Positions 3,980-64,000 of a stretch of 64,000 bases of DNA are shown piece after piece. This stretch comes from Gossypium raimondii (Eukaryota > Streptophyta > Magnoliopsida > Malvales > Malvaceae): contig NC_068569.1 in assembly GCF_025698545.1 (NCBI RefSeq), forward strand, positions 9,424,001 through 9,488,000. The letters are read 5' to 3'. Each line of letters begins with the position of its first letter. The stretch's first letter is position 1. A program made the translations under genes and the position numbers. The notes below the pieces were generated by a model. It had not been told where the DNA came from. It did not search any database and worked only from the letters and a program-made list of their open reading frames with translations.

Positions 3980-3988
3980 GTAAAATGA
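3980..3988. repeat. left 9-bp target-site duplication of the MULE
   Basis: GTAAAATGA directly precedes the left terminus GGCTAATTTACC. The identical 9-mer follows the right terminus at 11003-11011. Nine bases is the classic Mutator-superfamily duplication length. Confidence 0.9.
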
Positions 3989-4246
3989 GGCTAATTTACC
4001 AAAAAAAGCCACTTTTTTAAAAAATTACCGAAATGGGCCAGTTTTTTAATTATTTACCAGAATGGGCCATTTTCTCGAATCGCGTCACGTAAAGCGCGAT
4101 GTCGAGTGCGTGATGAGACATCGCGTCCGCGTCGGTAGCGACTGCCGGCGTGGAGGGAAATCGCGTCCTTGAGGAAGCGATTTCCCTCCACGCCGCCAGT
4201 CGCTACCGACGTGGACGCTGATGTCCCGTCACGCACTCGACATCGC
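3989..4246. repeat. left terminal inverted repeat, with an internal palindrome
   Basis: It matches the reverse complement of 10765-11002 with small indels. Within it, about 4096-4163 and 4176-4246 are inverse copies of each other, both built on GCGATGTCGAGTGCGTGA and GGTAGCGACTG and GGAGGGAAATCGC. The TIR can therefore fold into a roughly 70-bp hairpin with a very short loop. Confidence 0.88.
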
Positions 4247-4364
4247 TACCGACGTGACACGATTTTGACGCTGATTTTACGTTTGGGTTTTATGGCTTTT
4301 AGGGTTTAGGGTGCAGGCTTTTTAGGGGTTAGGGGTGTCGAATTTTTTTTTTCGAGTTGACGTA

Positions 4365-4665
4365 TCTGGTCAAATAGTGGGAAATCGCTTCTACCAGGAT
4401 GCTATTTGAGAAAAAATTGTGAAATAGTGGCCTCGTGGACGCGATTTCGCTACAGTGGTCATGTAAGAAATAAATTTTTTTTTGACTTTTACTGAGCAAA
4501 TAGTATAAAATCGCTGATACCAGGATGCTATATGAGAAGAAATTGTGAAATCGCGCCGTCGTGGACGCGATATCGCTACAGTTGGTCATGTAGGAAATAA
4601 TTTTTTTTGACGTTTCTGAGCAAATAGTGTCAAATCGCGCCTCGTGGACGCGATTTTGCTCTGAT
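4365..4665 (+). repeat. subterminal tandem repeat, about 125-bp period
   Basis: About two and a half direct copies. CAAATAGT recurs near 4370, 4495 and 4620, and CAGGATGCTAT recurs at 4395 and 4521. Each unit carries a GTGGACGCGAT motif also found in the TIR. Subterminal repeats are common transposase-binding regions in DNA transposons; that role here is inference. Confidence 0.75.
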
Positions 4666-4764
4666 AACAAGTTTGAATGAGGCTATAAATTAGATGAAAA
4701 TGTTCTTAGAATGCATAACTCACAGTGAAACATTTTAGAGAGCTAAGAAAGTTAGAGTTTCAAA

Positions 4765-7613
4765 ATGAGTGAACGATATTAGTCTTTGTTATTTACTACG
4801 ATGGTGAGGTTTGCCACACCGAGAATGGTGTTGTTTTTTGTTGGAGAATACGGTGCGACTGTCATTTAGCCAAAACATAGATTTGACAGAACTCCGTAAA
4901 AGAATTAGGCGTAAAATCTTCGGAACCAAGCCAATGAAAGTTCAGTCAATGACGTATCGATTTTGTTCTTATGTTGATCCGGTGACATATGACTCGTTCG
5001 ACATAAAAGGTGCTCGTAGCTTGGAGGCAATGGTGCGACTCATCTTGCTAGCGAGCAACTTATATTGAGTTATATGTACAATTTACGCCGCCAACCGATG
5101 TACTTCCGTCCGTGTTCGAGATGTATACAAGACCCTGGCCGACACTCGGTTAGCGTGTTACAAAATACTGAACACCCATGTTCGATGGCGGTGTGAATGC
5201 ACATCCCCAAGACACTCTGTTGGTGGATGGGACATGTACGTCGGTGGCTCGACGCTTGACGCCGAAATACGAAATGGGAACCGCATCAAGTTCTCTTGGA
5301 TGGCAATCTACATCCAATTGGGGACGTTATCAAATGCCCAGAAGAAGGGATGACGTACTACCTACGACATCAACTGGTGAGGGGACGTCGTACGCTGCAG
5401 ATGATTGTGGGTTAGAAGGTGACTCCGATGTGGATCCACCTCGAGAGCCCGGGCCGGATGGTGCAGAGGTGGGATTATTTTCTGAACCAGAGCCTATTCC
5501 AACAGAAGGTGAAGATGGTGATATGAGTGCAGATGATGAAGAAAATCCACGATTCAGAGCATACTCACCTCCAGCCCACATGCATAATGTCGATCTGTCA
5601 GCAGATGATGCATTAGAGTTTCCAGATCTACCACACCGGGTGCGCGATCGTACAAGTTCGGGGGTAGATCTCGGTGAACTTGAAGTTGGTAATCAGTTTA
5701 CCAATAAGGATAGTTTTATTGGTGCTTTGAAACAGCATATCATCAAAAACAGAGTTAATTACCACGTCGTTAAATCAAAATCTGATAAGTTTGAGGCGAA
5801 GTGTGCGGTGCAAGACGGCACATGTTCATGGAAAATCGTCGCCTCGTTAAGGAAGAGGACAGGGTTGTGGGAGATCAAAAAGTACAAAGGTCCACATACA
5901 TGTGCTGCAGGTACATGATTGAATGTGTCGAATAATATTTTATTTTCCAATGTTGCATTACTTAATGTACTCCTCCTCCGTAGGTGTTTTGAAGATCATC
6001 CAAAATGGATTCACTATGTTGGCTAGCTTGATATCGCCTACGATAAAAGCGGATCCTCGGACTTCATCTTGGTGATAATTGCCAATATCCGTAGCCAAAT
6101 GGGGTACACGCCCTCTTCCGCAAGGCTTGGATAGCTAAGCAAAGGCATTGGAGAAGATGCATAGTGGGTGGGACGCCTCATATAATGAAATATGGCAATG
6201 GTGTCAAGTGCTAGAGAGATACGTCCAGTGCCATTACGGACCTTGAAATGCAGAACATCGTATTACAACGACCGATTGCTACGTGGATGCCAAGTGTTCA
6301 AACGCCTATTTTGGACTTTTAAGCAATGCCGAGACGCATTTCGCATCGCAAGCCGTTGGTACAAATTGATGGTACCTTCATGTTCGGTAGGTACACTCAT
6401 CGGCTATTGGTTGCGATGTACACGACTGACGGTGGAGAATTCTTCCAATTGCATATGCAATAACACCGGGGGAGTCGTCTGATGACTGGATTTCTTTCTC
6501 TCTAGGTTAAGGAGGCATGTGTGCCCCCAACTTGATATCTGTGTTATTTCAGATCGGGGCGCCGGTATACTAGCTGCATTTGATCGAGAGGGAAGCTTGT
6601 GGCAGTGTACACACCATAGATATTGCCTGAGACACGTTGCTTCTAACTACTACAAGCAATATCCATCTAAGACGGAACGACGACAAGTGACCAACATGGG
6701 TATTTACTGTATAACTGTATTATTTCGTTTGTCAAATTGAATTAGTTTTATTGGTAGAAGGGGTATAAAATATTCGCTATGTTCTTATAGTGGTAGGGTA
6801 TGAAATGAATAAAGATCGCTTTCACGAGATGTTGGCAATCTTGCGATCCCAAAATGGAGAAGGGGCGGACTACCTGTGCAACATACGTTTCGAACAGTGG
6901 GCACAAGCATACGATGGAGGCCTACGATATGGCCATATGACGTCGAACCTGGCAGAATGCATAAATTCTGTTCTTAAAGGAACGCGCCATCTACCAATAA
7001 CAATGGTTGTCGAGAGACATATTTCCGCTTACGGCGCTATTTCCAAAGCGGCGAAACTTATGCGAGGCGGATGCGGGGTGGGCATGTATGGTGCAGTAAG
7101 ATAGTTCAAGAAATTAACAAGGCGAAGGCGAGGGCAAATATCATGCACGCTGTGTGTCACGATCGAGACAATCTATGGTTTCGCGTGACGGAGTTCGACA
7201 TACCGCACCAAGGCATTGTTGGCGGGCAATATCGTGTACACTTGCGAAACAAGACTTGTGACTGTGGGAAGTTCGATGCACTTCGTTATTCATGCGCTCA
7301 TGTTATTGCAGCCTGTCAGAAACTCCGTCTGGATCCGCTGAGTTATGTGGACGAAGTGTACAAATTAGAAAACATGTACAACGTATGGAGACACGTTTTC
7401 CCACCGGTCCCAGATGAACGTAATCGCCACCGTGTCTGTTGCTCCTTTTAAGTCATTACGGATAGAGAATTGCGTGCATAGTCAAGGGTCGACCTTTCTC
7501 CACTAGAATACGGAACAATATGGATATCCAGAAACAACCAATCAATGAAGTTGTGCGGATGGTGTAGGAACCCGAGCCATACAAGTCGATCATGCCCTAA
7601 TCGCAATAGTTGA
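4765..7613 (+). pseudogene. MULE transposase (mudrA-type), frameshifted
   Basis: This is the remains of a MuDR-family transposase, which cuts and pastes the element. The N-terminal PB1-like part begins near the ATG at 4765 and reads GEVCHTENGVVF and NIDLTELRKRIRR. The MuDR N-terminal DNA-binding region lies at about 5680-5918 (GNQFTNKDSFIGALKQHI ... GPHTCAAG). The catalytic core keeps all three acidic residues: Asp at 6368-6370 (QIDGTF), Asp at 6552-6554 (ICVISDRG) and Glu at 6955-6957 (NLAECINSVLKG). The last two are joined by a plausible 97-bp GT-AG intron (6700-6796). A SWIM zinc finger (CDCGKFDALRYSCAHVIAAC) follows near 7258-7315, and a C-terminal CCHC knuckle (CGWCRNPSHTSRSC) precedes the TGA at 7611-7613. 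Frame breaks occur near 4775, 4840, 5060-5180, 6000-6350, 6440-6520, 7075 and 7430-7540, so no full protein can be made. Confidence 0.9.
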
Positions 7614-7825
7614 ATGTAATTATAGAAGAAATTACCTTTTATTCAATTATTAATTGATAATTGTATTAATTGTTGGTAAAATTATCAAATTACTACAATT
7701 TCTTAAATGTTACTACCAACAAAACATTTTACAAAATCTAACATTATGTAAAACTACAATTTCAAATGGTTAGTAAGATTGTCAAATCCATTGAATTATG
7801 TTGGTAAAATTATTACATTAATTCA

Positions 7826-8230
7826 AATAGGTTAGGGTTGGGGTTTTTAATTAAATTAGGTTAGCTTAGGGATTTCAATTAAGTTAGGTTAGGGTTTTAA
7901 TTAAATTAAGTTAGGTTAGGGTTTTAATTAAATTAGGTTAGGGTTTTAATTAAATTAGGTTAGGGTTAGGGTTTTAATTAAATTAAGTTAGGTTAGGGTT
8001 TTAATTAAATTAAGTTAGGTTAGGGTTTTAATTAAATTAAGTTAAGTTAGGGTTTTTAATTACATTAAGTTAGGTTATGGTTTTTAATTAAATTAGGTTA
8101 GGGTTAGGGTTTTTAATTAAATTAAATTGGGTTAGGGTTTTAATTAAATTAAGTTAGGTTAGGGTTTTTAATTAAATTAAGTTAGGTTAGGTTTTTAATT
8201 AAATTAGGTTAGGGTTAAGGTTTTAATCAA
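7826..8230 (+). repeat. telomere-like minisatellite inside the MULE
   Basis: About 13-14 imperfect copies of a unit of roughly 27-32 bp: AATTAAATTAAG followed by TTAGGTTAGGGTTTT. Some units carry a doubled TTAGGG. Each contains a telobox-like TTAGGGTTTTAA. Units differ in T-run length and by single bases, so this is an expanded minisatellite and not pure telomeric TTTAGGG repeat. It separates the 3' ends of the two convergent MULE genes. Confidence 0.85.
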
Positions 8231-8329
8231 ATAATGTCAAAATAACTCGGAAAAATTTCTATGTGTATTACATCGTCATAAACTTCTATTTCATTACATC
8301 AAAGGATAATTTTAATACGGTAATCAATG

Positions 8330-10436
8330 TCTATGACCGGGATTCGGTTCCACATGGCGGTAGTCGATTCTGTACTGGATTCCTCCTTCCTCTAGCTTCC
8401 TGGCGGTTGTTCTTCCTCGGGTGGTGATTGTTGTTCTTCCGGTTCGGCATCTGCTTGTCGGACTTGGGACGATGATCCACCTTCAAAGAATAGTGTATGT
8501 GGAGGTGTTTGCATCATGAACGGCGACGGAGTTTGAAAGCCATGCGTTGCTGACGATTGGTAAAAATGAGAGCTCCCCGACGGCCCCCTTGGGACCCTCC
8601 TGCGCCGATGGCCTACTTATCGGTGGTCCGCTCGGCATTACAGGAAATGGAGCTGATCCGGGCATTTGGCTCCAACCTGCCATAGGATTCGGAAAAGGAT
8701 ACATGTACGGGTTAGGGTACATATAAGGGCTAGGAAACATACATGGCATCATAGGGAAAGGTGAATGCGTGGGTATCATCTGTTGAATTGCTGCGTCGGT
8801 GCTCTCGTTGGGGACGGTGATTGCATAGCCGCTGATGATGAACCGGGTGAATGTCTGGGCCTCGTTGGGGGGCTGGCCTCGTGGTCTTGTCCCCTTGGAT
8901 TTAGAGGCCCGCGCCTTTCCCTTCCGACACGTAATTGCCGCTGCCTCTCCTCCGGCGTAAGTAAATACGGCTTCCCATTGGCCCTAAACCATGGCATGTA
9001 TTCTGGAACGCACGCTAACTCGGGAACGATGATTGGTTCCCGAGTAGGTAGATATTCATTACGATTTTCCCACATTTCCATGTACACTGACCAGTATCTA
9101 GGCCAATCCGTACCTAACAACCGAAGGTCGATTTTGTGGTGCTTGTCAAACTCCTCAGGGTCTGCAGGGATCGGTTGTCTACATCCAAACTGTCGTAGGA
9201 CTCTGTCTGTCTGGTGGGGCTCCACGGTTGCATAGTTGATCAACACCACTTTCACGTGCCAGCGTTGGATTTTGTAAAACTCTTCCGGATTCTTGCCTGG
9301 ATCACGGATCCTCGTATGGTGTCTATTGAAACTACATGAACATGATAGAAATATTACATATATACATAATACTAAATACTAAATATCAATCCACTAGCGA
9401 ATGGATGGAAATATCTATTTGCAATAATACTTACTACGCTTCCGACCGTTGCTCAATAGAAGTCATATCTTCAAGTTCATTCGGTAATCCACGATAACTT
9501 CCCGGATGGTTCCACCTAATTAAATAAATTTTTAGCATACTTTTATTCTTACAAAATCTACATAACAATTTCAAAATGTAATATAAAATTTACCTCGTTA
9601 CGAGTGGGAATGTATATGGGTGGTTCACTCGAGGACGTAGAAATGGAAAGCGAAACCGTGCCCATGATTGCAGTAGTGACAGGCAACCTCCGATTTTTGC
9701 TCTCCTCGGTTTGGTCGCCCACATATCCCGATATAATGTTGCCAAGACGGCAGACCCCAACTAAATTCACCGCTCTAAAATCAACGAGTTTTAGCACCAC
9801 CTTAGATGTACACGCTCTCGTGACGTGTCGGCCATGAGATAGCCTCCAATTATTTGAAGAATGTATGCTCGAGCATATCGGATTCTTTCAATTTCGGTTG
9901 AATTTTGATTCGCATCGGGAAGGTGGCACGTAACCACCCATCTCCACCTTACCTCCATTCATTTTATCCGAACGGCGCCAAAAGCTCGTAGCACACCGCC
10001 TCCCAATTGCTAGATTGGCGGAACCGATCCTTGGCCACGGCCCGTCCACCCAGAATCCCAAATGCAGATGGACATCTTCTAGAGTGATAGTGCACTCTCC
10101 ACATGGAAGATGAAATGTGTGCGTCTCGGTCTCCACCTCTCGATCAACGCACCGATCGGTTTGGCTCCAACTTGCATCACCGCCTACCATCGCCACGTGC
10201 AAAATCCCGCTTCCATAAGTAGTTCTCTACTAACGGTGATGGAGGAGCATGCATATTCAATATTGCATGTCAATACCCGATCTTGACCTTTTATAACAAA
10301 AAATAAATTAATAAATATCTAAAATACATAAATAAAAATATCTTAAATAAAATTTAAAATTTAAATTTAATACTTACCATGTTCATTTGCTCCACCGATA
10401 TGTGATTCCTATCAAGACGAATCAATGATCCGCCAT
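8330..10436 (-). pseudogene. plant mobile domain (MAIN-like) gene, frameshifted
   Basis: Minus-strand relic of a PMD protein, the family of MAIN and MAIL1 and of genes often annotated as long-form serine/threonine phosphatase 7 homologues. The start lies at 10436 and reads on to LIRLDRNHIS after a frame break, with a donor near 10377. The diagnostic core lies at 10060-10130 (THTFHLPCGECTITLEDV). Further exons carry WNHPGSYRGLPNELED near 9430-9520 and a long block at 8776-9310 (RIRDPGKNPEEFYKIQRW ... DLRLLGTDWPRYWSVYMEMW ... PIIVPELACVPEYMPWFR). A methionine- and proline-rich tail (PYMYPNPYMYPFPNP) follows at 8560-8779, and the end is near 8330. Several frameshifts and stops interrupt it. PMD genes are known passengers of plant transposons. 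Its role for the element, if any, is unknown. Confidence 0.85.
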
Positions 10437-10764
10437 TGTTGAAAATATTAAAATTTTAAAATTATTTTTAAAAAAATAAAAATTTTAAAATATTCTTAAA
10501 AATGAAATTTAATGGGAAAAAATTTAATATGGATTTGGAGATTTTTGAAGGAAATTGAGAGGATTTTGGAAGGAATTTGAGAGTTTGAGAGAATTTTGGA
10601 AGAAAATTGAGAGAATTTTGAAGGAATTGAGAGAATTTTTGAAGGAAATTGATATTGAATTTGTTTGTGAAAATAAAAGGGAGGGTGGGGGTTTATATAG
10701 TAAAAAAATTTAGCGTTAGGGGGCAACGGTCAATTTTTGACCGTTGAGCACTTTTCACTCATAC

Positions 10765-11002
10765 GACCACATCGCGTCCTGACGTCGAGCGACTGCCGAC
10801 GTGGAGGAAATCGCGTCCTTGAGGCGATTTCCCTCCACGTCGGCAGTCGCTACCGACGTGACGCGATGTCCTGTCACATATCCTGACATCGCGCTGACGT
10901 GGACGCGATTTCGGGGAAAATAACCCATTCCGGTAAATAATTAAAAAACCGGCCTATTTCGGTAATTTTTTAAAAAAAGTGGCTTTTTTTGGTAAATTAG
11001 CC
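10765..11002. repeat. right terminal inverted repeat, with an internal palindrome
   Basis: Reverse complement of the left TIR with scattered differences. It too contains inverse copies of GTCGGTAGCGACTGCC-type sequence (about 10775-10815 against 10838-10910) around a short centre, so both element ends are hairpin-capable. Confidence 0.88.
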
Positions 11003-11011
11003 GTAAAATGA
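11003..11011. repeat. right 9-bp target-site duplication of the MULE
   Basis: GTAAAATGA, identical to 3980-3988. Confidence 0.9.
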
Positions 11012-11620
11012 ACTAGTAATGACTATCATGTATACCCCAAGCTAAACACAATCTATTATTTGCACTTTCTTTTCTTCTAATATTAAAACCTCTGCCTCCG
11101 TCATTTGAACTGTTGTAAAGTGTTCATTATTTCGTTCCTTCCAGATCCCGTAAATACAATCATTCCATCCAAGCTTCAAAAGAATGGTTATCAATGCCTT
11201 CCCTTTTAATCTCCTCATTGCCCACATCAATTCATGCTGCCAATTTCCAGCTTGGTTTTTCAATTGACAAAGTGCCAAATTCCTTCCTAAATTACTTTAG
11301 AGAACCTGATGGTCCCTAGTTTCTTGCTCCTCGAAGCATAATTTGCATCTTCCATCAATATTTATCCCTCCCTGAATAAGCCTTACTTTTGTAGGAAGTC
11401 GATCCTGTATAGCTAGCCAAGATATCACAGAATGCTTTGGTATACGAAATGGGAACCAAAGCAATCTACTCCATGGGACCTTTTCACTTTTTTCCCTTAT
11501 CCCATACCAGATCCTACTAACCATTTGATTCTGCCCTGATTGGTCAATAAATTTGATTTCACTGATATTTGCATCAAGGACTCTCCTTTCAATTTGATCC
11601 AAATTTGATAGTGCTTTAAT
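11012..11620 (-). pseudogene. LINE relic: reverse-transcriptase zinc-binding domain
   Basis: On the minus strand 11602-11297 encodes a zf-RVT domain (WSRLLWFPFRIPKHSVISWL ... DGRCKLCFEEQETRDHQ), the C-terminal zinc-binding module of plant non-LTR retrotransposons. A second frame at 11278-11042 continues with LITILLKLGWNDCIYGIWKE and ends at a stop near 11040. The frame change between them and the absence of the upstream endonuclease and RT mark a 5'-truncated, decayed LINE. Its 3' UTR and A tail now lie beyond the MULE at 3917-3979. Confidence 0.85.
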
Positions 11621-12105
11621 TAAAAAAATGAAAAATCCACCGATGACGGTGAATATTTGAGCTGTCCATCTCCAAAGATTCTCGGTATCAAATTTATGTT
11701 ACTAAATTACAAGTATTTTAGTAGCTCTCTGCCAATTACCGTTGTTAATGAATCAAACCCAAGTTCTTATATTGCAAAAGAACAAATAAAGTTGTAGATA
11801 GTGGATTTTAAATCCGGTCCTAATGCCAAAGTGAGTGGGTAACTATAATTGCCCACTCCATTCCCATAATTGAATAAAGGCTTTGGAGTTTAAAAAATTT
11901 GCTGAATCGGGAAGATAGACAGGGAATTCATTATTGATGTCCCATGGTATAGGCCACTTTTTCCTACTATTTCATCTACTGCAAGAGACTTCTTCAATGT
12001 CCCACCCCTCCACTATTTCCAGAGCTTCCCAGTCTCAACCACTAATCTTTTTCTTTTTCTTTCTCTTATCTCTTGGGATTCTCCAAGTCAACTCTTTGCT
12101 TGTAC
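11621..12105. other. spacer and upstream region of the NIP gene
   Basis: No gene or repeat recognised. The last part is the presumed promoter of the aquaporin gene, with pyrimidine-rich DNA near 12030-12075. Confidence 0.4.
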
Positions 12106-12263: not shown

Positions 12264-14296
12264 ATGGAGAATGAGGATGTTCCATCAGCTCCTTCCACCC
12301 CTGTAACACCGGGGACTCCTGGTGCTCCACTCTTTGGTGGGTTTAAGGGAGACCACAGAGGTGGGTTTAATAAAAAATCCCTTCTCAAAAGCTGCAAATG
12401 CTTCAGTGTGGAAGATTCCATGGAAGAAGGGAGATTACCCCCTGTTTCTTGCTCATTGCCACCTCCTCCTGTCTCACTCACAAGAAAGGTTATACAAGAG
12501 ATCCTAATGTCGAACACATGATTTGAGAATTATTAAGTTAAAAGTGAATCTCAAATCTTTAACTTTTTTGCCATTTTTTGTTGCAGGTGGGAGCTGAGTT
12601 CATAGGCACTTTTATACTAATCTTCGCTGGTACAGCCACTGCTATTGTGAACCAAAAGACCCAAGGCTCTGAAACTCTGATTGGCCTGGCCGCCTCAACT
12701 GGCCTTGCTGTCATGATTGTCATACTCTCCACTGGCCACATCTCGGGAGCACATCTCAATCCAGCCGTCACCATTGCCTTTGCTGCACTCAAACACTTTC
12801 CTAGGAAACATGTAGGGTTAATCCCACGATTTTCCTTTTTGTCTTTTGTAGATGTTTTAAATAACAATTTTTTGGGTTTCAATTTCTGGGCAGGTGCCGG
12901 TCTACATCGGAGCACAAGTAATGGCGTCATTGTGTGCTGCATTTGGGCTAAAAGGAGTGTTTCATCCGATGATGGGAGGGGGAGTGACAGTTCCTTCAGG
13001 GGGATTTGGTCAAGCTTTTGCTCTGGAATTTATCATTAGCTTCAATCTCATGTTCGTCGTCACTGCGGTTGCCACCGACACCAGAGCAGTAAGTATAAAA
13101 TTTCAAAATTAGTTGTATGCTAATTTCTTTTACAAACTTTTCAAGATTTCAAAAGACAAAAGTCAATGAAGATGGCTATTGGTTGGCAAGCTCAATCTCC
13201 AAGGAAAAAAACCAAAAGATAATAGTAATAAATACAAAGTTGCTCGCATCCATTGAATTCATGGTTCAATGTAAAGGTATACTATAAGATTTAACAACCA
13301 TCTTCATTTTCACTTTCACATTATTCTTCAATTTTTTTTCTTAAAAAAAAAGAAAGTAAAAACAATACATTAAATGCAAAAAGAAAAAAGTAACTTAGTA
13401 ATAGTAATCAGTAAGATTCTCTTTTATATCATCTCAAACGCATTTTACAAGCAGGCATATATATATATAATAGTAGCGATTAACAATCGGTCGATGATGA
13501 GCAGAGATTTAGAACAGTAAAATTGATGTTAAAGGGAATATTATATTGTGACTGTGAGGGATGAAATATGTGCAGGTGGGTGAGTTGGCGGGAATCGCGG
13601 TTGGAGCTACTGTCATGCTCAATATTCTCATCGCCGGGTATGTTCAACATTTTCTCAAGTATTGGTTTTAGTTCTCATTATATTATAAATACAAAAGCAA
13701 CTACTTAATGTAGAGATAACTTGAAGAACAAGCAAAGTCCTCCATGAGGCTGCAATTTAGGGATGGAAAAAGATGATGACAAATTCAGAAGTTGGATTAT
13801 TAGCCATCCATAACTTGTGGAACAACTAGCACTAGGGAGACAATGATCACATGTTTGGTTATTCAAGACCGCCGCCTTCATTGATCAAAGAATTAAATTT
13901 AATATCTTTTAGACCCATTTTTTTTCTCTTGAAATTTTGAATTAATCTAGGAAATATTTTAATCAGATGTTTCGATAATGATTTGTAGTTTATGCAATCA
14001 CTTCTCCTTTATTTTCTTTTTCTTCCCCTAGCTTTCAAAGATCACAAGTCCATGAGGATGATTGTTAAGAAACTCCCTTGTTTTTGTGGTGCGGAAACAG
14101 ACCAATTACAGGTGCTTCGATGAATCCAGTAAGAACATTGGGACCCGCCATAGCAGCAAATAACTACAAAGCTATATGGGTGTACTTCACAGCCCCCATC
14201 CTGGGAGCCCTTTGCGGTGCAGGAACCTATACTGCAGTGAAGCTGCCTGAGGAAGATGGTGAAAAGCCATCGACTGTGAGGAGCTTCAGGAGGTAA
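12264..14296 (+). CDS. NIP6;1: NIP6;1-type aquaporin (boric acid channel)
   Basis: Membrane channel of the Nodulin26-like intrinsic protein family. Arabidopsis NIP6;1 moves boric acid in nodes toward young leaves, in the plasma membrane. Five exons: 12264-12488, 12587-12811, 12894-13088, 13576-13637 and 14101-14296, all GT-AG, giving 300 residues (Arabidopsis about 305). The N-terminus ([20 protein letters not shown]) and CKCFSVEDS match NIP6;1 rather than NIP5;1, and TPG repeats in this tail are linked to polar localisation in NIP5;1. The first pore motif is NPA (133-135). The second is NPV (244-246), followed by Arg247 of the selectivity filter; the NPA/NPV pair is typical of boron-transporting NIPs. 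The C-terminus is RSFRR, as in the Arabidopsis protein. The start is the ATG at 12264; a GTG nine bases upstream is not used. The gene looks intact. Confidence 0.95.
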
Positions 14297-19801: not shown

Positions 19802-21265
19802 TGTAATAGCCTGATTTTCCAATGGTGTATGAAACAGTGGTTCAGGCCACCAAATTCGGTGAGTAAGTTCGTAAATATTATTAATTAATATTTACGAGTC
19901 AAATATGGTTTTAAAAAGGGCTTTTGATTTGGAAATTTATGTTTTATAATGATTTATTAGGTCAAGTGGTTTTAGAAAGTGGGGTATCGGGACCTCGTTT
20001 CTATAAATCGAGCCGTAAATATTTTTATAAATATTTACAGAGTATCATGAAGGTGGTATTAAAGTTTCGTTAAAAAAATTTAACGTTTCAATAGTTAATT
20101 AATTAAAAGAACTAAATTAAAAAAATGCAAAACTTACTAATTATAATAATTAAGTAATTAAATGACTTGATTAGTAAATAATGAAGGACTTAAGTAACAA
20201 ATATACCTAAATTGATATAGTGAGGCGGCATAATAAGGAAAATAATAAAATAAAATGACGCAATGGTAAAATAGTAATTTTAATGAAATTAAAACAAACA
20301 AATAGAGAATTCTAAAAGTTTCTATGCAATTCATCTTCAATTTCGGCCTAAACAGCCATGGGAGGGAGAGCTGGTTTTTTATATTTTTGTTTTATGTGAG
20401 TTCAATTCTTACATGTTTCTTATAATTCAATCAATAATCTATTTAAATATTCTAGGTCTTCATACAACTTCTAATAAACTCAAATTCACTATCAAACCCT
20501 AATATTTTAACATTTTCATAATTTAAATCTAAAATCAATATTTAACAAAATCACTTTATAAAATCATTATACAACATAATCAAAGCTCTAAATCCATGTT
20601 ATTCATCAAAAACATCTAATATTATCAATGACAACTTCCAAAATTTTTAATAAAATAAAAAATAAAGGTACAGTTTAGTTGGACCTAATTGCAACAATTT
20701 CAAAAACATAAAAATTACAAGAAACGGGTAAGAATTGAACTCACATGAAGAAAAATATGAAAAACCAGCTTGAGCTCTCTCTCCTATGGGGCTGAAATTG
20801 AAGATGAATTGCATAGAAACTTTTAGAATTTTCTATTTGTTTGTTTTAATTTCATTAAAATTACCATTTTGCCATTCTATCATTTTATTTTATTATTTTC
20901 CCTTATTATGCTACCTCACTATATCAATTTAGGTATATTTATTACTTAAGCATCGTGTCCCAACCAGTGTCCATGCCCGTGTAACTCTCTGACCTGGCCA
21001 CACGGCCATGTGACCCCTGCAGCTTTAAATTTGTTCTACTTTTTTAAAAAAAAAATTTGAGTTTCTGATTTAGTCCCGACTTGTTTCTAATGTGTATTTA
21101 GGGCCTTGAGGGCTCGTACAAGGGACAATATTAATGATTTTGATTGGTTTATTATGAATATTGATATGTTATGAGACGTTTGAAATTTCTGTCTGTTTGA
21201 TCCGTAAACCCTGGTAATATTCTGTAACCCTATTTTGACGACGGATACGAGTTAGGGGTGTTACA
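19802..21265. mobile_element. 1.46-kb LTR-like unit
   Basis: It starts TGTAATAGCC and ends GGGGTGTTACA, flanked by TTTTT on both sides (19797-19801 and 21266-21270). The duplication is in a T run and therefore weak by itself. However, removing the unit rejoins the arm of the surrounding foldback exactly, which supports the limits. No retroelement protein is encoded. It carries a long internal inverted repeat. Confidence 0.65.
20189..20950. repeat. inverted repeat with 239-bp arms and 285-bp loop
   Basis: Arms at about 20189-20427 and 20713-20950 are inverse copies, close to 90% identical by eye; TATACCTAAATTGATATAGT and CTAAAAGTTTCTATGCAATT occur in one arm and their complements in the other. 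A transcript would fold into a long hairpin. Confidence 0.85.
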
Positions 21266-34101: not shown

Positions 34102-35543
34102 ATGTTGTGTCGTAAAAATTCAAGCTGCGAGGAAACAGGATCTGTACCAGTGTATCTCAATGTGTATGATCTAACACCAATTAATGGGTATGCTTATTGG
34201 TTTGGACTTGGGGTTTATCATTCTGGTGTTCAAGGTTTGTTTTCTTATTACTTACTATTGTCAACTCTCCTTCTTTATATATGCCTTTCTGCTTCTAGTT
34301 TTGGATGGCAGATCTATGGTTCGGGTTTTAAATCTTTGAAACTGGGTGTTCTGTTAGATGCTGTTTTCCATTTTTAGATCCAAGAAAATAAAAAGTTGAA
34401 AAACCTTAGCTGAAGTGAAGTGAGGTTGAAGAAAATTGGTTTCTTATTTTTCTGGTATTTGTTTTATTGATAGTTTTATGAAGGAGCTGATTGTTGGGTT
34501 ATTTGGGTGGCAGTTCATGGGGTTGAATATGCGTTTGGAGCTCACGAATATCCAACAACAGGGATCTTTGAGGCAGAACCAAAGCAATGCGATGGGTTCA
34601 CTTTTAGGAAGTCGATTTTGATTGGGAAAACAGAGTTGGGGCCTGCAGATGTGAGGGGAGTGATGGAGGATTTAGCTGAGGAATACAAAGGAAATGCGTA
34701 CAATTTGATCACCAAAAATTGCAACCATTTCTGCAATGATGCTTGCATCAGGTTGACTGGGAATCCTATCCCAAGCTGGGTTAATCGCCTTGCTAGAATC
34801 GGTAACTCTGCTTTTTCAATTAATGATAAAATGGGTTCTTTTTTCATTCAATTTTGCTGTTATAAGTCGCCAAAGAAACCGATAAATCAATTGCCCTTCT
34901 GAATTCTTCTTTTTCTTCTTTTACGGAATATAATGGTTGAAAGTGTCAAGAAAGCAAGAACCAGAGTCAATGCTTTAGTCAGTTTTACGTTGTCCAGATT
35001 CATATTAAGTGACAAATATAGATATATATTTTTGAAACAGAGCATCCTATTCCATATCCTATGAATATATGCTTAGATATGAGTACTTCAAGGAAAAATT
35101 AAATCTAAATAACATTCTTTGGGTTTGATAAAATGATAAAAAAAACTGCTACTTGGTAACTTGGAAACTTTTGAATGTAACAACAGAAATAATTAAGTTT
35201 CTGGTTTTTATAAGATTCCCCCAATAATTTCTGTTTTCTGAATTTGATTTTAGAGGATAATGGGGTGTATAAAGAATGACATGTACTGGTGATTGTAGGG
35301 TTCTTCTGCAACTGTGTTCTTCCGGTGACTTTAAATGCAACCAAAGTGAGGCATCACAGAATTGAAGACAAATCCAGTGAAGGAGAAAAGAAGAAATTGA
35401 CGAACGAATCCAACAGATTCACATCATCTTCAAATTCTTCATCGAATTCATCGCCATCCATCACTCAAAGCAGGGGTAGAAGCCGAAGCAGACGCTCACT
35501 TCCCCCTTCTTCACCATTAGTTATTGCTCCTCCGTCATCTTGA
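34102..35543 (+). CDS. PPPDE/DeSI-type putative deubiquitinase or deSUMOylase
   Basis: Three exons: 34102-34234, 34514-34801 and 35299-35543, giving 221 residues. The PPPDE fold occupies about 15-145. His40 in GVYHSGVQ and Cys114 in ITKNCNHFCND are the expected catalytic pair of this permuted papain-like peptidase family, which cleaves SUMO or ubiquitin conjugates. The core YPTTGIFEAEP and WVNRLARIG match the plant DeSI-like proteins. The C-terminal tail (about 165-221) is Ser-rich with RGRSRSRRS, an RS-like basic cluster, and is likely disordered. Plant members are often annotated as DeSI-like At4g17486-type; the substrate here is unknown. All junctions keep the frame and the gene looks intact. 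Confidence 0.93.
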
Positions 35544-62062: not shown

Positions 62063-64000
62063 ATGGTGGACATAGACGACACCTTGCAGGAGATCAAGAA
62101 CGAGAACGTCGATCTTGTAAGGAAAAAAAAAACACATGATTTTATCTTTGTTTTTTTCACTTTTTGTTTGATGGTTAGTTTGTGTTTTTTTATGTCTTAG
62201 GTTTTTAGGGTACATATTGAGATGACACGATTGTTATGTTAGCAGTCATTGCAATGCAAACACCAGATTCAATTTTACTTTTATGTTGCTTGGCCACCTA
62301 CTGAATTTGTTTGATAGCTGATACTTATTATATGAATCGTTTCCCAAGCTGACGATGGCTCCCTTTGCCAGTTTGAATGAAGCATTTTAAAAAAAATAAA
62401 ATTTAAAGATTGTTTGATTGTTTGATGATAGAATTGATAATTTTGGTGTGTGTGTGTGGGGGGGGGGTTGTAGGAGCGTATACCCGTTGAAGAAGTATTT
62501 CTGCAGTTGAAATGCACCAAGGAAGGGTTGACAACCGAGGAGGGGCTGAAGAGACTGCAAATCTTTGGCCCAAACAAACTCGAAGAGAAGAGTGTAAATA
62601 TTTGCTAATCTCACTCCCACTGTTTCCTCATTTTCTGTTATTATATATAACGAGGAGAGAAGCTGATTAGGGTTGAACGAATTTTAAACAGGAAAGCAAG
62701 GTTTTGAAGTTCTTGGGATTTATGTGGAATCCTTTATCATGGGTGATGGAGATTGCAGCAATTATGGCCATTGCTTTGGCCAATGGAGGAGTATTAATCC
62801 TTCTCTTTCATCACGCTTTCTTGCTATACTTGCATCGCAATTAGGTAAACCATTTTTTTTAACTGGATAAACCAAAATGCAGGGCAAGCCCCCAGATTGG
62901 CAAGATTTCGTTGGTATCACGGTTTTGCTTATTATCAACTCCACTATCAGTTTCATTGAAGAAAACAATGCAGGCAATGCAGCAGCGGCACTTATGGCCG
63001 GTCTTGCTCCCAAAACCAAGGTGCTTTATATGAGACATCAATAATTGGCCAACAGAAACAATACATGCATACGTGATAGTAGAAAACTGATGTTTCCTTT
63101 GCATGTTTGAATAATTGATTAATTAATAGGTCCTAAGAGATGGAAAATGGTGCGAGCAAGAAGCTGCGATTTTGGTACCAGGAGATATCATCAGCATCAA
63201 GTTGGGAGATATCATCCCAGCAGATGCACGTCTCCTAGAGGGCGATGCGCTCAAGGTTGATCAATCTGCCTTAACTGGTGAGTCTTTGCCGGTAAACAAG
63301 AACCCCGGTGATGGGGTTTACTCGGGTTCTACCGTCAAGCAAGGTGAGCTCGAGGCCGTTGTTATCGCTACTGGTGTTCACACCTTCTTTGGTAAAGCAG
63401 CTCACCTGGTCGATAGCACCAACAACGTAGGCCACTTCCAGAAGGTAATCTCACAAGCTTATGACAAGCATCATTTGTGGTATATTCTTAACTTGTATCT
63501 GATGTGTGCACTGGGATGGGAACTGATTGATCAGGTGCTGACCGCAATTGGGAACTTCTGCATATGCTCAATTGCAGTAGGCATGCTAGTTGAGATTGTG
63601 GTGATGTATCCGATCCAGCGTCGAAAGTATAGAGATGGAATTGATAATCTCTTGGTGCTTCTCATCGGAGGGATTCCTATCGCCATGCCAACAGTTTTGT
63701 CGGTGACAATGGCTATCGGGTCTCACCGGCTTTCTCAACAAGGAGCTATTACAAAGAGAATGACAGCCATCGAGGAAATGGCAGGAATGGATGTACTCTG
63801 CAGTGACAAGACTGGGACACTTACTCTAAACAAGCTTACTGTAGACAAGAGCATGGTTGAGGTTGGTCCATGAATTGGGTTCAACAGGCAGCCGTTAACA
63901 TACCTTCAACTATGAGAGTCAAATCGTGTATTGTAGAAACCATAACTCATTGATCATGCAACTGAAATTTCAGGTATTCACAAAGGATGTTGACAAGGAA
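62063..64000 (+). CDS. plasma-membrane H+-ATPase (AHA type), N-terminal part
   Basis: P3A-type proton pump that uses ATP to export H+ and energise the plasma membrane. Exons seen: 62063-62116, 62474-62593, 62692-62790, 62883-63020, 63130-63444, 63535-63861 and the start of another at 63974 that runs off the window. In frame this gives 360 residues of roughly 950. Landmarks: FGPNKLEEK and [14 protein letters not shown] before TM1, [20 protein letters not shown] in TM2, the actuator TGES at 186-189, the TM4 [12 protein letters not shown], and the phosphorylated Asp333 in [12 protein letters not shown]. The autoinhibitory C-terminus lies outside. The N-terminus ([18 protein letters not shown]) is specific to this paralogue; [13 protein letters not shown] recalls AHA4/AHA11. 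The exon 2 donor used here leaves KSESK where most AHAs have KKESK. A run of G's ends four bases before the TAG of the exon 2 acceptor. Confidence 0.95.

Follow-up and report, generated by a model that had tools for sequence, protein, structure and literature searches.

Relic of a two-gene Mutator-like element in Gossypium raimondii with a convergent plant mobile domain gene and a predicted VANC21-like fold

Structure of the element and its two genes

We analysed a window of 64,000 nucleotides from Gossypium raimondii (contig NC_068569.1, positions 9,424,001 to 9,488,000), in which a Mutator-like element (MULE) spanning positions 3989-11002 carries two genes, one for a MURA-like transposase and one for a protein with a plant mobile domain (PMD). 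The initial annotation had described a complete element with a perfect 9-bp duplication, inverted ends, a mudrA-type transposase and a MAIN-like PMD gene, the two genes facing each other across a telobox array, and all of these structural features were recovered (Table 1). Both flanks carry the perfect duplication GTAAAATGA, and the terminal inverted repeats (TIRs) of about 236 bp match at 84% over 243 columns (E 6e-62). The transposase gene consists of at least three coding pieces on the + strand, reads inward from the left end and is recognised by Pfam through DBD_Tnp_Mut (E 1.3e-10) and SWIM (E 8.9e-7). The MULE catalytic domain did not reach the Pfam cut-off in the tested piece of the window (E 0.14) because its frame is broken, and was found with E 4.8e-9 in L023, the relative with the most open frames among those fetched. 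We take the last transposase exon to contain the third catalytic residue and a CCHC knuckle, both assigned by eye. The PMD gene, with four exons on the - strand, reads inward from the right end and matches Pfam PMD twice (E 4.6e-10 and 1.4e-9). Splice sites of both genes were inferred from frames and GT/AG motifs, and TATA-like sequences sit inside both ends, upstream of each gene.

The non-coding DNA is rich in repeats. The whole element contains 11 exact matches to AAACCCTAA on either strand, the subterminal regions hold repeated GTGGACGCGATTTCGC tracts, and the array between the genes, detected by TRF (Tandem Repeats Finder) and a filter in 17 of 21 copies, is 174-982 bp long in these.

While the structure of the element is complete, as had been claimed, its reading frames are not: with L023 as the reference, we counted 27 frame-changing indels across the four PMD exons and 25 across the three transposase exons, with none in the first of these three. 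The 8-11 bp target duplication of the Mutator superfamily is present in the window copy and most fetched copies, and the transposase is of the MuDR type, with a DNA-binding domain, a SWIM domain and the MULE catalytic domain, the last shown in L023. The element is the relic of a two-gene autonomous MULE, ordinary in kind. Classification as a Pack-MULE, in which a host fragment is captured and no transposase is encoded, was ruled out, since a transposase is present and PMD is constant over the examined copies.

Table 1. Positions of the element's features in the window
Feature	Position	Strand	Remarks
Target site duplication, left copy GTAAAATGA	3980..3988	.	
Left terminal inverted repeat	3989..4224	+	pairs with 10769-11002
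Subterminal 126-bp direct repeat, 2.3 units	4357..4638	+	present in 18/21 copies
TATAAA, candidate core promoter of transposase gene	4684..4689	+	function inferred
Transposase exon with DBD_Tnp_Mut	5276..5910	+	gene start lies upstream; exon end read from sequence, splice site inferred
Transposase exon with MULE catalytic domain, frameshifted in window copy	5984..6699	+	domain shown in L023; splice sites inferred
Transposase last exon, SWIM	6797..7610	+	SWIM by Pfam
27-bp repeat array, telobox-like AAACCCTAA, between both genes	7818..8232	.	15.4 units
PMD gene exon 4, PMD profile 239-346, then proline-rich tail	8437..9331	-	
PMD gene exon 3	9438..9514	-	
PMD gene exon 2, PMD profile 12-194 in L023; part that was folded	9596..10284	-	
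PMD gene exon 1	10378..10436	-	
TATATA, candidate core promoter of PMD gene	10694..10699	-	function inferred
Right terminal inverted repeat	10769..11002	-	pairs with 3989-4224
Target site duplication, right copy GTAAAATGA	11003..11011	.	

Association of PMD with the transposase across the genome

The genome holding the window was searched (750,779,957 bases in 281 contigs); the scored lists hold the best-scoring places only, and first-look candidates are not confirmed copies. The left 321 bases of the element as query gave 40 scored places from 1896 first-look candidates, Pfam PMD gave 117 from 6035, the PMD exon-2 protein gave 150 (80-100% identical) from 5204, and the last transposase exon gave 141 (85-100% identical) from 3621. 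Of the 40 left-end places, one is the window copy and three are the far ends of elements that were already listed; of the 36 others, 20 were fetched from the top of the list. Twelve of these 20 copies have a perfect 9-bp duplication, one a perfect 10-bp and two a one-mismatch 9-bp duplication; in the remaining five the ends are shortened by alignment or truncation. All 20 retained PMD exon 2 in whole or in part, arguing against the possibility that most copies with the same TIRs lack PMD; all four PMD exons were kept in 16 copies and all three transposase exons in nine. Among the 16 unfetched left-end places, six show a listed PMD place at the expected position, judged from coordinates by eye.

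A listed PMD place lies within 10 kb of 39 of the 141 transposase places, against a chance expectation of about 0.56, and all 39 pairs are convergent with starts 2.0-4.8 kb apart (36 pairs came from the 150 scored PMD places and three were added by hand from the Pfam PMD search; two duplicate rows were removed). Every fifth of the other 102 places was sampled, and reading 1.4 kb at the expected PMD site in the first 20 of these 21 revealed PMD in 19, always on the opposite strand. In the places examined, this transposase lineage nearly always carries a PMD gene, and the orientation is convergent throughout.

PMD also recurs in a second, distant transposase lineage. Of 150 places with the Pfam MULE domain, 12 lie no more than 10 kb from a listed PMD place, and a search with one second-family transposase found listed PMD near 17 of 150, all convergent in both cases; combined, these are 20 distinct elements, with about 0.47 expected by chance per comparison. 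When six second-family elements were compared with 10 window-family copies, the transposase piece was 36-46% and PMD 40-51% identical. The transposase exon of either family has ATGG as its last bases, followed by a putative GT donor, with GGGT kept in 11 of 12 second-family sequences, and the end position of PMD exon 2 matches in four second-family-type sequences, two of which have the transposase shown alongside. Since a convergent PMD occurs in two distant families whose putative donors match, the two-gene unit looks old. A further PMD, L054 (G000:C1:4384400-4385600), is 58% identical to exon 2 of the window family and groups with it on a PMD-B-rooted tree. Searches of viral contigs with PMD, the transposase and the TIR start did not find relatives.

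A convergent PMD gene in a MULE is not new as a kind. In the part of Dupeyron et al. 2019 available to us (PMC6446971), PMD is described as present 'in most', and antisense 'sometimes' to 'often', in several angiosperm MULE groups. Groups 47-50 of that study (MULE-Monocots, MDR, MUDRAVI2 and MUDR) resemble the cotton element in their listed features, namely TIRs, a 9-bp duplication where given, a SWIM transposase and, in most members, a PMD that is 'sometimes' to 'often' on the opposite strand, where it lies here. The MUDR group includes G. raimondii, and the table rows for these four groups are without counts, a selection test, spacing or fold. PMD is likewise carried by MULEs in the PMD-C transposase fusions of grasses and Amborella, as far as the portion of Ikeda et al. 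2017 that we consulted describes them (PMC5418596); those are fusion proteins, whereas the cotton PMD is a separate opposite-strand gene with its own start. According to the accessible part of Nicolau et al. 2020 (PMC7156037), eudicots hold mainly genic PMD-C, a statement at odds with the abundance of PMD in cotton, provided that the cotton PMDs belong to PMD-C, on which one tree was not decisive.

Decay and selection

Most copies examined, the window copy included, are decayed, and they were probably moved by proteins produced elsewhere. Deletions of one base are far commoner than insertions of one base (163 versus 26 distinct sites in five exons of L009-L028 and the window copy, compared with L023), and many of the deletions are common to several copies. 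In a four-gamete test on two PMD exons, shared deletions failed in 57% and 48% of pairs and ordinary substitutions in roughly 40%. Any one of three causes could account for this pattern: recombination between copies, broken lineages that spread, or errors in the assembly of repeats.

To describe selection, we used omega corrected for the mutation spectrum, calculated from the left-end copies and the window copy after poorly aligned rows had been dropped (six copies for T2, three for T3 and one for P4). For the transposase, omega was 0.97 for singletons and 0.63 for shared variants (z 2.6), the latter falling to 0.55 in the catalytic and C-terminal exons. The PMD domain exons gave 0.75 for singletons (z 2.1, a synonymous excess) and 0.94 for shared variants, and the last PMD exon gave 1.35 and 0.96, respectively. 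Without the correction, the pairwise ratios of the PMD parts were 0.69 and 0.72, and those of the transposase parts 0.85 and 0.50. Older divergences were covered by 23 stop-free exon-2 sequences (L023, L022, L011 and 20 from stop-free rows of the exon-2 search), among which the median pairwise dN/dS of PMD fell from 0.89 at dS<0.05 (15 pairs) to 0.35 at dS 0.25-0.30 (27 pairs). Such a drop with depth is what one would see if elements retained function during activity and lost it once inserted. PMD pairs of the second family gave 0.14-0.55 and its transposase a median of 0.22 over 66 pairs; six of seven PMD comparisons with the more distant L056 were saturated, and the remaining one gave 0.18.

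Over the whole PMD, young copies are near neutral (omega 0.97 for singletons and 0.94 for shared variants). Two observations weigh against a retained function: an open frame and a high protein score had guided the choice of the 23 exon-2 sequences, and at three tolerances the differences fixed between two subfamilies were not significantly distinct from singletons (p 0.18, 0.69 and 0.36). The alternative that PMD evolves neutrally is borne out in part, with near neutrality among young copies and a median dN/dS of about 0.35 between older lineages. As judged from these substitution ratios, PMD is under constraint over longer times. Because PMD is kept at least partly in 20 of 20 copies and constrained between older lineages, the earlier proposal that it is a working component of the family, and not a one-off capture, is supported, even though decay has turned most of the examined copies into relics. 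The PMD gene has genuinely been part of the MULE for a long time.

Predicted fold and possible role of PMD

VANC21 is an anti-silencing protein of Arabidopsis VANDAL MULEs, and its structure has been solved on its target DNA. The exon-2 domain of the cotton PMD is predicted to adopt the VANC21 fold, which is its only clear fold match, at 12% sequence identity. DUF1985, the VANC domain, was not reached at its curated score (18.6 bits for L023 exon 2, cut-off 35.1), although 15 of the 23 PMD rows match with E up to 0.1, the best at 9.5e-5. Seven of the 23 sequences also weakly matched DUF7745 (Pfam; best E 7.9e-5), hinting at a wider related plant domain set. Sequence searches of PDB gave no useful match. 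The portions of the literature searched, including PMC8616336, PMC5735166, PMC10398659 and PMC6419827, contain no statement linking the PMD and VANC folds; the 9lnj paper may contain one. In the excerpts we had, the review PMC8616336 still terms PMD a domain of unknown function and names PMD and VANC both as counter-silencing strategies, and PMC6446971 reports 'PMD and/or DUF in half the members' of the VANDAL group.

We propose that the PMD protein would bind to short motifs within non-coding DNA of the element itself, candidates being the 27-bp array and the GTGGACGCGATTTCGC tracts repeated in the subterminal regions, and would counter host silencing, so that both genes could be expressed and the element could move. 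We consider the case evenly balanced for the relic being that of a two-gene MULE whose PMD, with the VANC21 fold, binds element DNA and counters silencing. VANDAL21 likewise pairs a MULE-encoded accessory protein of the same predicted fold with changeable tandem arrays in non-coding DNA; the differences lie in the ends, about 236 bp here and 46-174 bp in the VANDAL group (PMC6446971, in part), and in the low identity to VANC21. The DOWN motif, described in the MORC1 promoter in the consulted part of PMC9899485, had no exact match in the three element copies checked.

Two other roles appear unlikely. PMD could take the position of mudrB as an accessory factor of transposition, acting in integration or complex assembly and without a silencing role. 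As far as the available parts of the sources go, the layout is that of maize MuDR, with two convergent genes between long TIRs of about 215 bp that carry promoters (PMC3440606; layout alone compared), and mudrB is apparently needed for integration (PMC6446971); the constancy and convergence of PMD would also agree with such a factor. However, the second gene of the cotton element is a PMD gene whose sole clear predicted fold match is an anti-silencing DNA-binding protein, and mudrB is said to be confined to Zea (PMC3276141, in part). MAIN and MAIL1 are required for meristems and for silencing. In an equally improbable scenario, PMD would act on host machinery as a MAIN/MAIL1 mimic, disturbing their PP7L complex and weakening host silencing in trans without binding element DNA. 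The MULE PMD is 39% identical over 205 residues to L053, a PMD of the same genome that we take to be a host MAIL gene, but this likeness between sequences leaves the array and the predicted VANC fold unexplained. That PMD is a passive passenger, a host gene captured in Pack-MULE manner, is very improbable: capture of PMD-C by MULEs was inferred twice (PMC5418596, in part), young copies evolve near-neutrally and a host-like MAIL sequence falls among transposable element forms in the PMD tree with weak support, but the association is near-constant and always convergent in two distant families, dN/dS falls with depth and putative splice donors match between the families.

Elsewhere in the window, a zf-RVT fragment of a LINE (long interspersed nuclear element)-type reverse transcriptase (11300-11698, - strand, E 2e-17) lies just beyond the right end, and the MULE may lie next to, or within, the relic of an older retroelement. 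An inverted repeat whose arms (20189-20427 / 20713-20950) match at 86.6% over 246 columns and are separated by 285 bp is a possible small inverted-repeat element, and host gene exons encode an aquaporin (MIP, 12563-13036), a PPPDE peptidase (34474-34899) and a P-type ATPase (63130-63870).

Returning to PMD as a proposed anti-silencing protein, the structural link to VANC makes an old speculation a testable claim, and a VANC-type fold allows a concrete and inexpensive test of PMD, namely whether it binds DNA and, if so, which motif. In tea, phased small interfering RNAs arise from PMD genes (PMC10673657, in part), which would suit a host response to PMD-bearing elements. More tentatively, PMD and VANC may form one superfamily of transposon DNA-binding anti-silencing proteins, in which the PMDs of flowering-plant MULEs would be the general form of a counter-silencing system so far recorded only in Arabidopsis VANDALs, and host MAIN/MAIL1 would descend from it or have been captured into it. 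If MULE PMDs are anti-silencing proteins, much of the cotton PMD set (6035 first-look candidates, of which 117 were scored) would consist of weapons of transposons, and the host's MAIN/MAIL1 would be part of an arms race open to study from both sides.
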